Shown here: positions 13,693 to 42,257 of the stretch, in pieces | Numbering within the stretch: position 1 is the first letter of the stretch | Layout: each line of letters begins with the position of its first letter | Assembly (NCBI GenBank): GCA_001768515.1 | Contig: MEOA01000009.1 | Location: 62,334 to 126,333, forward strand | Direction of reading: 5' to 3' | Source: Bacteroidetes bacterium GWE2_42_24 | GTDB taxonomy: Bacteria; Bacteroidota; Bacteroidia; Bacteroidales; TTA-H9 | DNA length: 64,000 nt | The notes under the pieces: model-generated | Databases searched by the model: none | What the model saw: only the letters and a program-made list of their open reading frames with translations | What the model was told of the DNA's origin: nothing | Program-made: the position numbers and the translations under genes

Positions 13693-13828
13693 TTTATAGA
13701 TATATAACTTGTGCTTTATAATCCTTTTTTTAGATGTAAGTCGATCTGATTAAGCTGTAATTGAAGCATGTGTGGATAAGAAGAAGCGTCCATGAATTAG
13801 GACGAACCAGCGCGAAAGCAATTCGTTA

Positions 13829-13879
13829 AATTCGTGTAATTCGTGGACAGGAAAGTAGCGTCCACGAATTACACGAATT
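13829..13879. repeat. Perfect 20-bp inverted repeat with 11-bp loop
   Basis: Arms at 13829-13848 and 13860-13879 are exact reverse complements built from the ATTCGTGTAATTCGTGG / CCACGAATTACACGAAT theme. Partial extra copies of the same ACACGAAT theme flank it on both sides. From memory, similar dispersed intergenic repeats occur in many environmental bacteria; no gene function is implied. Confidence 0.85.
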
Positions 13880-14337
13880 AACACGAATAAGGACGAAGAA
13901 GAGATTAGTGGATAAAAAGAAAGTCAACGAATTTTGTTTTTTTTATAATCCGTGGTCACTGTGCTCAATTAAAGCCACAAGCAGGAAATCCTGCTAAAAC
14001 ACGGGGCAGAAATGGCTGTTTCTTTACCACGGATTGACTTCCTGGAAGGGTGTGCCATAGAAAAACAAATCTTATATGCTCATGTAGAAATTACCGGTTA
14101 GCCAACCTGACCCGAGGCAATTTTCCTCCCTGCACTTCAGTAGCAAATTTACTCTTACATTCTTTCTAAAATTTGAATCATTTTCCAATTCACAGGTATG
14201 TTTTCACACCTAATTTCGCCCTCTTTTAAATTTTTTTTTCAACTTTTTTTAAAATTTTTGTGTGAATATAATCACACAAATTAGATTTTTTAAACAATTG
14301 ATTACGTGTTATCTACAACTCCATTCTACCCCACAGT

Positions 14338-14370
14338 CGCATCAAAGTCATACCAAAGTTAGGACAAAGT
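14338..14370 (+). repeat. 11-bp phased repeat array (copy A)
   Basis: CAAAG occurs at 14343, 14354 and 14365, exactly 11 bp apart, with a degenerate CACAG one period earlier at 14332. The units sit on the same helix face, as expected for a cooperative protein-binding site. The array is about 85-120 bp upstream of a sigma-54-like box at 14453. Confidence 0.7.
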
Positions 14371-14459
14371 TATGTTTTTCTTATGTATCGCCTATTGCTG
14401 TAGTAATTATGGAGTATTTTTTATATGAAGAAACCATAACTATATAAAATTTTTGGCAC
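14350..14459 (+). repeat. 110-bp duplicated intergenic element, copy A
   Basis: Aligns without any gap to 41666-41775 at 84 of 110 identical positions by my manual count. Shared parts include the end of the 11-bp array, TTTTTCTTATG, the GCTGTAGTAA block and the terminal AATTTTTGGCAC-like end. No reading frame is conserved between copies, so it behaves as a non-coding element. Confidence 0.75.
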
Positions 14460-14468
14460 GGTTTTAGT
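14453..14468 (+). promoter_or_regulatory. Sigma-54-like -24/-12 site, copy A
   Basis: TTGGCAC matches the -24 box; the -12 position holds TTAGT, keeping the G at the correct 10-bp register from the -24 GG, but with T in place of the usual C. The match is partial, so this is a candidate. A strong hairpin lies at 14502-14530 downstream. Confidence 0.4.
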
Positions 14469-14501
14469 AAGTGCCATTTTAGAGCCACATTTTTCTGATG
14501 A

Positions 14502-14530
14502 ATGATCGGTGCAGGACCCCTGCCGGTCAT
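14502..14530 (+). other. Stable hairpin downstream of sigma-54-like site A
   Basis: ATGATCG and GTGCAGG on the left pair with CCTGC and CGGTCAT on the right around an ACC loop, allowing one G-T pair and a small bulge. No T tract follows, so it is not a classical terminator. It could be part of a small RNA or a binding site. Confidence 0.4.
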
Positions 14531-14801
14531 CGGTGATATCGCTAACGATTTAACAGCGGGCATCGCATTCTGAATCACAACAATACTGAAAGCCATCTCA
14601 TACCATCACCCGTGTTCGCGCTGGAACGGCATGAAGGTTCTACACGCGTATTTACGCGCGTTAGCATATCTTCAGGAAAAGATCAGGATAACTTCATATT
14701 CAGTAGCCTACACGGCCAGAAGAATCTCACTCCGATGCCCGGGGGAGCCAAAGTGAAGAAACACCTGACTCCGTGGTTCATGGTGTAACTATCGCACCAC
14801 C

Positions 14802-41355: not shown

Positions 41356-41369
41356 GTGGTTATGCTGAG

Positions 41370-41399
41370 TTTGAGGTCTTCGTAACCGATAACCTCAAA
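41370..41399 (+). terminator. Possible terminator after the radical SAM gene
   Basis: TTTGAGGT (41370-41377) pairs with ACCTCAAA (41392-41399) across a 14-nt loop. The following T content is poor, so this may be a weak or factor-assisted terminator. Confidence 0.4.
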
Positions 41400-41641
41400 T
41401 AGCTTATTATGATTGTTTTATCAGTTTATTCGGTTCGCGCCGGCAGCTAAACCCAAATTAATTCGCTGTAAATAGACATTTCCAAATATTGAACAATATC
41501 CAAATTTTGATCAGAATTTTATCCCTGATTCAGTCCCGCTTTTTAATTTTTTTTCAGGTTTTTCCTAAAAATTTAAGTGAGATTGGTTACAGAAAAGTGG
41601 GTTTTGTATGTAGTTGATGTATAGGAATTTATATTACTATT

Positions 41642-41685
41642 TTGTGTCAAAGAGTGGACAAAGATACACCAAAGTTAGGTCAATG
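41642..41685 (+). repeat. 11-bp phased repeat array (copy B)
   Basis: CAAAG at 41648, 41659 and 41670 and CAATG at 41681 are spaced exactly 11 bp. The array is about 85-125 bp upstream of the sigma-54-like site at 41769. Confidence 0.7.
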
Positions 41686-41775
41686 ATATCTTTTTCTTAT
41701 GAATCGCTTATGGCTGTAGTAACGTTTAGGTATCTGATATATGAAAGACGGGTAACTATTTGTAATTTTTGGCAC
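41666..41775 (+). repeat. 110-bp duplicated intergenic element, copy B
   Basis: Gap-free counterpart of 14350-14459 (84 of 110 identical by manual count). Both end with TTTTTGGCAC. Confidence 0.75.
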
Positions 41776-41784
41776 AAAGTTTGT
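41769..41784 (+). promoter_or_regulatory. Sigma-54-like -24/-12 site, copy B
   Basis: TTGGCAC, five bases, then TTTGT: the -24 GG and -12 G are in the correct register and only the final C of the -12 GC is changed. Better than copy A. Confidence 0.45.
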
Positions 41785-41855
41785 GAGGGCTTATTAGCAA
41801 CGTTCTGTCACATGGCAATAATAATTAAATAAGTATTTTGGTTACACAAAAAATT

Positions 41856-41886
41856 CACCCTTAGATTTTATATCGGGTGGTGTTTT
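41856..41886 (+). terminator. Possible terminator of a short transcript from site B
   Basis: CACCC (41856-41860) pairs with GGGTG (41875-41879) and is followed by GTGTTTTT. Together with the site at 41769 it would bound a transcript of roughly 100 nt. Confidence 0.4.
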
Positions 41887-42257
41887 TACTCAGGGTTAAT
41901 CGTGTGCTATTATTTTAGTGTTAGCCGCTGAATGTTAATAATCAGAATTCTGGTAAAACAAAAGAAGAGTTGCAGTGATTACCCTGCTTTTTTAAATACT
42001 CCTGATATTGGAAATGGGATATATGTGAATTATTAACAAGTATAATGAGTGTCTCTTGTCTGTTTTCAGGGCATAATTTGTGATATCGTTTTGTTAATGA
42101 CCTTCTGTGATGCCTTGATGGCAATCTTTCCCGGCATAGTTCATTTCATCCGGCATTGAGCGGTATGTTGGGTGCTGGTTTGGTTAAGTAAGAGGCTTAT
42201 GTTTACAGGCAGCCTCATGACGAACTCATGAAATATCGACCTCCTGAGGCGTGTCCT

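Follow-up and report, generated by a model that had tools for sequence, protein, structure and literature searches.

What kind of element occurs twice, beside different genes, in the window, i.e., the whole stretch of 64,000 nucleotides of Bacteroidetes bacterium GWE2_42_24 analysed here? In an ungapped comparison, positions 14350-14459 (copy A) and 41666-41775 (copy B) are identical at 84 of 110 bases, the same count as in the original prediction, while the best 110-base ungapped match of Markov-shuffled versions of the two regions did not exceed 53 in 30 trials. The genes listed beside copy A differ from those beside copy B, as had been claimed. Both copies also carry the CAAAG boxes at 11-bp steps that were first described, at 14343, 14354 and 14365 in copy A, with a weak fourth box, CACAG, at 14332, and at 41648, 41659 and 41670 in copy B, followed by CAATG at 41681. 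Downstream of the boxes lies TGGCAC (14454-14459 in copy A and 41770-41775 in copy B), with the -12 G of a predicted sigma-54-type site at 14467 and 41783, respectively. As for the proposed 110-bp element, the conserved match is real, but the element itself is longer, as the following features of the two copies illustrate.

13982..14752, + strand: copy A, stretch homologous to close paralogues (L003 alignment, -358..+412 relative to 14340)
14224..14259, + strand: A/T tract on the upstream side of the conserved region (read from the sequence; T runs kept over 94 copies)
14257..14280, + strand: palindrome TTTGTGTGAATATAATCACACAAA of copy A (stem; across copies only the TCAC arm is prominent)
14332..14369, + strand: CAAAG boxes at 11-bp steps, candidate activator array (sequence and register count over 89 copies)
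14375..14449, + strand: middle block TTTTTCTTATG..GCCTAT..GTAGTAA..TATATGAAG..TAACTAT, near-fixed spacing (alignments of copies)
14454..14468, + strand: predicted -24/-12 sigma-54-type site TGGCACGGTTTTAGT of copy A (copy alignment and groES control; expected start ~14480)
14480..14752, + strand: copy A right arm, predicted to be transcribed (structure not conserved)
41356..42257, + strand: insertion of 902 bp that holds copy B, flanked by convergent genes (the same genes about 39 bp apart in genome G001)
41648..41685, + strand: copy B boxes CAAAG, CAAAG, CAAAG, CAATG at 11-bp steps (sequence)
41770..41784, + strand: predicted -24/-12 site TGGCACAAAGTTTGT of copy B (sequence; expected start ~41796)

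Homology of copy A with another paralogue, L002, extends to about 14943 (alignment -357..+603 relative to 14340), and no terminal inverted repeats of copy A were securely found. The palindrome of copy A, which we take to be CRP/FNR-like, is poorly kept across copies, and a palindrome scan gave at most 55% complementarity. Just upstream of copy A, positions 13828-13888 of the window are, by eye, rich in AATTCGTG/CACGAATT and include an inverted repeat.

Extent and distribution of the family

Nine genomes of the same family were compared, namely the source genome (G000), two of the same genus (G001 and G002, the latter a sister species) and six others (G003-G008). When 196 bases of copy A were compared with G000 itself, 40 scored matches were obtained among 77 candidates, and a sequence-only profile, which was built from 49 aligned copies, found 69 places in G000 and 43 in G002 at E <= 0.01; the other genomic copies that the original prediction called for are therefore many. 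The same profile found no copies in the seven other family genomes (G001 and G003-G008). The fetched loci, which were taken from the profile match list with eight weak places of G000 and one of G002 left out, hold 103 profile matches, including 57 in G000 and 42 in G002 of at least 35 bits. In an order-level draw of 295 genomes, with 11 candidates scored per genome and G002 not drawn, the single positive was G000 itself, and a wider contig scan by profile returned 15 stretches, seven in the MAG SZUA-528 and eight in other organisms, which were taken as chance.

The element is thus a dispersed, lineage-specific repeat family with about 60 copies between genes of G000. Copies also occur at the ends of several G000 contigs (C67:88, C41:133, C56:2, C34:2 and C58:378), and because they lie at assembly breaks, the true copy number may be higher. 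Rfam gave no match in the window, and no report of the element, or of any sigma-54-bearing MITE, turned up among the open-licence papers listed, in agreement with the suggestion that the family is undescribed.

Anatomy of the conserved region and the sigma-54 machinery

Across 94 copies, the conserved region spans about 300 bp, in which T-rich tracts, TTGATTA, the CAAAG boxes, TTTTTCTTATG, GCCTAT, GTAA, TATATGAAG, TAACTAT and TTTTTGGCAC-N5-T.G follow one another in this order. Conservation then fades across a dozen bases, where sigma-54 would start transcription; the block had been said to end exactly at the site, and its end does fall near the predicted start. Internal gaps were unnecessary in 47 of the 49 rows of the copy alignment, and the phased boxes sit about 90-115 bp upstream of the -24/-12 site, in line with the original prediction (85-120 bp). 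Of 89 copies, 42, 72 and 63 carry exact CAAAG at the first, second and third box position, respectively, whereas none came within one mismatch at three shifted registers, used as a control.

The pattern GGYRY-N5-[TCA][ATG]G is present in 90 of the 97 copies having the right end, so the claim of a -24/-12 site in register extends well beyond copies A and B. A purine follows GGYRY in 89 of these 90, and a T stands two bases before the -12 G in 89 as well; the seven copies that lack the pattern are, in G000, L040 and, in G002, six that score 35-60 bits. The -12 box departs from the usual consensus TTGC, since C follows the -12 G in just 17 of the 90 copies, and its commonest form is TTAGT (30 of 89 counted copies).

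The sigma-54 machinery on which the original prediction depends is encoded in G000. One rpoN gene is present in each of the nine family genomes, and G000 has 15 strong and two weak matches to the sigma-54 activator domain, i.e., to enhancer-binding proteins. One of the enhancer-binding proteins, encoded at L056 (G000:C4:14331-14831), has an 83% match in G002 and a best match of 43% in the element-free G001, and is a candidate partner of the element. The enhancer-binding genes L063 and L064 show the same pattern of identity to G002 and G001, in weaker form.

In the available part of a study of Flavobacterium psychrophilum, groES is listed among the sigma-54 (SM4) promoters (PMC9723704), and it was used here as a control. 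A TGGCAY-type site with the same spacing as in the elements lies 65-78 bases before the groES match in all nine family genomes; the pattern is loose, with an estimated 0.2 or so chance hits per upstream stretch, and its position is constant. The groES site of G006 reads TTAGC at -12, like the elements; deviating -12 boxes thus occur before groES. Genome-wide, the strict form TGGCACN5TTGC is not enriched (eight against seven in the control), and two of the eight are copies of the element. Taken together, the anatomy, the groES control and the constraint described below support the reading of the conserved region as a predicted sigma-54-type promoter.

Insertions, constraint and exchange

A block of about 900 bp is common to several copies, and its right end, CACACAGATTCCGGTAGAACCA, recurs inverted at the left end. 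Both terminal inverted repeats, of about 22 bp, were found in six loci (L015, L026, L031, L038, L086 and L088), forming units of 779-975 bp in which the longest stop-free stretch has 59-127 codons. An end profile, trained on 16 ends from the same loci, gave 63 hits in the 983 kb of fetched loci (training ends counted among them, and some loci overlapping) versus eight in reversed sequence; with this profile, the repeats went undetected in most copies of the fetched loci, and no autonomous partner with the same ends was found there. The direct repeats beside the ends of the six units measure 5, 7, 0, 8, 9 and 0 bp and are weak evidence, because a length of at least 7 bp also arises in four of 30 mismatched pairs of flanks. 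The site of copy B is empty in G001, one locus at which the two convergent genes are about 39 bp apart instead of 902 bp. At the site of copy A, the comparison with G001 is less clean: about 110 bp separate fabD from the end of the preceding gene there, but the neighbour is a different one. For at least some copies, the surrounding DNA is an insertion bounded by terminal inverted repeats, a feature absent from the original prediction, and the paired ends together with the empty copy B site indicate that such copies belong to insertions of the MITE kind, with the predicted promoter in the middle. For copies with no detectable ends, we infer an insertion origin from their homology.

Several copies occupy matching positions in G000 and G002. 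The list of such pairs has 21 rows, with L083 used twice, and comprises four pairs with the same genes on both sides, arranged and oriented alike (L021/L119, L033/L045, L084/L103 and copy B/L046), one with both flanks shared but the element inverted, 12 with one flank, L096/L118, which was kept apart, and three with the shared gene on the other side (L018/L136, L010/L131 and L087/L104). At the fourfold sites of 18 flanking gene pairs, 1557 of 3044 positions (51%) are identical, so that unconstrained DNA should be largely randomised. With column classes set on 57 other copies, the four double-flanked pairs are identical at 225 of 248 high-information columns (91%), 95 of 168 middle columns and 41 of 120 low-information columns (34%), and at 54 of 178 positions of the 3' flank (30%). 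The 12 one-flank rows gave 629 of 744, 283 of 504 and 142 of 359 for the three classes, respectively, and 234 of 571 for the 3' flank. The high-information columns are alike and the surroundings are not; the core is thus held while its surroundings are not. Most copies have lost the inverted repeats and kept the core, a pattern of conservation for which mobility alone is not a ready explanation, and use of the core by the host would be the simplest reading. Gene conversion from a few functional copies may also account for it.

The copies of G000 are more alike than those of the sister species, with middle-column identities of 0.686 within G000, 0.543 within G002 and 0.544 between the two. The comparison from which these identities come also took in 15 positional pairs, one of them among the three with the shared gene on the other side. 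The nearest neighbour belongs to the same genome for 76 of 96 copies, and the species label changes nine times on the copy tree versus 31 times when shuffled, with bootstrap support not settled. When positional pairs were compared with re-paired copies, they were no closer in high-information columns, as 475 of 500 re-pairings reached the same value; in the remaining columns they were slightly closer (0.487 versus 0.452, a value reached by 5 of 500). Such a pattern would be fed both by old shared positions plus sequence exchange and by new spread within G000.

The extent of similarity between single copies varies as well. L096 and L118 are nearly identical throughout, while several other pairs part right after the -12 box, such as L011/L013 (93% over -692..+128), L111/L113 (91% over -175..+126) and L089/L094 (95% over -495..+129); L115/L116 are 95% identical over -115..+123, and other similar pairs continue to +160..+412 or beyond. 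We read the break after -12 as the point where homology usable for exchange ends. Rearranged copies were also seen. The two flanks of L083 (G000:C1) adjoin two copies of G002:C1, L115 and L116, which lie 30 kb apart in opposite orientation, a layout that would fit an inversion by recombination between copies. L087 (G000:C33) and L104 (G002:C20) share a 1.4-kb stretch, core included, at 93% identity, with a shared neighbour gene on opposite sides, possibly by recent transfer or duplication. L015 (G000:C35) and L117 (G002:C13) have the same genes on both sides, with the orientation of the element reversed.

Right arms, rival explanations and known systems

If the conserved region is a promoter, what it serves should be sought in the right arms, and the original prediction proposed regulated small RNAs, which would make the family a large set of paralogous sRNA genes like Qrr or FopS. 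The promoter-like anatomy agrees with this, no gene is close downstream of many copies, and similarity joins 29 of the 103 right arms in one cluster; of the others, however, 47 have no relative and the rest fall into ten pairs and two groups of three and four, and some pairs match in neighbouring genes only. A hairpin can indeed be drawn at about 14501-14531 of copy A, as predicted, but it is not conserved, and its pairing is reached by 60 of 500 shuffles. Slid versions pair less (17-47% versus 73%), a bias that favours any structure drawn from one member sequence. Positions 14480-14765 of copy A fold no better than shuffles (z -0.18), and RNAalifold predicted no consensus pair in the right arms. 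Terminator-like sites over 45 kb number six on the plus and ten on the minus strand, with 2.6 expected from shuffles, and the 3' flank has diverged at the four double-flanked positions, as given above. With arms mostly unrelated, no covariation and no common terminator side, the proposal that each copy is a small-RNA promoter fares poorly, and we consider it unlikely.

No reading frame is open across copies in the right arms. Some arms show three-base periodicity at about p+290 to p+410, and near the right end there is a peptide-like stretch that is shared; Pfam gave sub-threshold matches only for one such piece. The periodicity and the peptide-like stretch may be the remnant of a coding sequence. 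The next gene lies at a median distance of 553 bp and, among 103 copies, points in the same direction as the element in 42 and in the opposite direction in 44, with none called in 17, an even split on which a role as promoter of the flanking gene was rejected. A replication-oriented site was likewise rejected, as GC skew is positive at 34 of 73 copies and there is no strand bias.

On balance, we favour as probable that the element is a non-autonomous, MITE-like and protein-less insertion of roughly 0.8-1 kb, carrying a constrained, predicted sigma-54-type promoter that would be opened by an enhancer-binding protein. The middle of the insertion would hold the promoter region of about 300 bp, consisting of the A/T tract, the phased CAAAG boxes, the middle block and the -24/-12 site. 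RNA polymerase with sigma-54 would bind the -24/-12 site, an enhancer-binding protein on the phased boxes about 100 bp upstream would open the promoter, and the right arm and whatever lies beyond would then be transcribed. The feature kept would be transcription itself or the bound polymerase, and not a particular RNA. A more far-reaching version, in which a transposon spread about sixty copies of one complex, enhancer-dependent sigma-54 promoter that the host has kept working as a scattered network of orphan promoters, with transcription or the poised polymerase as the object of selection, is put forward tentatively and seems to us rather doubtful.

Other explanations place the value of the core elsewhere. 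In a purely selfish repeat, the core would serve spreading only, the copies would stay similar through gene conversion and recent copying, and the host would gain nothing. The greater likeness among G000 copies, their nearest neighbours within the same genome, the few label changes on the tree and short near-identical tracts such as L115/L116 and L111/L113 all speak for it; however, G002 copies are on average no more alike than copies of different species, and at old shared positions the core is kept no less well than in any other pair, even though inverted repeats and arms have disappeared there, which leaves the selfish repeat conceivable but not what we would expect. The core might instead be a protein-binding site with another role, such as chromosome organisation, insulation or titration of a regulator, its -24/-12 likeness being incidental or secondary. 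In its favour, the next gene has no preferred direction, the core is conserved although no product is, and the strict sigma-54 consensus is not enriched elsewhere; yet few positions are as constant as the GG and G of -24/-12 and the purine, their spacing is that found upstream of groES, conservation weakens around the start site, and the GC skew is without strand bias, so that we regard this role as improbable. Finally, an integron-like platform, with a tyrosine recombinase, an adjacent promoter and variable downstream sequence, is brought to mind by L011 (G000:C52), where a divergent 628-codon integron-integrase-like frame lies on the minus strand at about -930 to -2830 and reaches the contig end, by C-terminal pieces of recombinase beside L013, L019, L023, L027 and L041, and by paralogues that often part right after -12. 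The best NCBIfam match of the L011 frame is TIGR02249, integron integrase, at 219.7 bits, below the cut-off of 265, most copies are without a recombinase piece, such pieces turn up at a distance from copies as well (L139, L144, L149 and L152), and the neighbours are ordinary, often syntenic genes and not cassettes, all of which makes this platform very improbable.

Mobile promoters are known, but none of those in the open-licence papers listed comprises a complete enhancer-dependent promoter, upstream array included, in about sixty copies. In the present element, the predicted promoter has been preserved better than the ends on which movement depends. Should it prove active, the family would offer a natural example of a mobile element that seeded a regulon, in which selection for transcription without a conserved product becomes testable. 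The Qrr sRNA genes of Vibrio are paralogous copies with sigma-54-dependent promoters, as predicted for the element, but they are few and have a conserved RNA, whereas the transcribed part of the element is not conserved. FopS, a family of paralogous sRNAs of Bacteroides thetaiotaomicron, resembles the element as a set of multi-copy non-coding loci in the same phylum, but differs in being defined by the RNA (PMC11697453). The SM4 promoters of Flavobacterium psychrophilum have the -24/-12 architecture in common with the element and, as far as the available text goes, drive named genes, unlike the about sixty copies of the element, which have no common downstream gene (PMC9723704). Repeated -24/-12 sites in Bacteroidota may, in turn, be element-borne. 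Finally, BrickBuilt, a MITE of Porphyromonas gingivalis discussed by its authors as a putative mobile promoter, is likewise MITE-like, intergenic, multi-copy and without a transposase, belongs to the same phylum and has promoter activity; however, it is built on 23-nt direct repeats, drives transcription in both directions in E. coli and is set apart by a description that, in its available portion, mentions no sigma-54-type site (PMC4596501).
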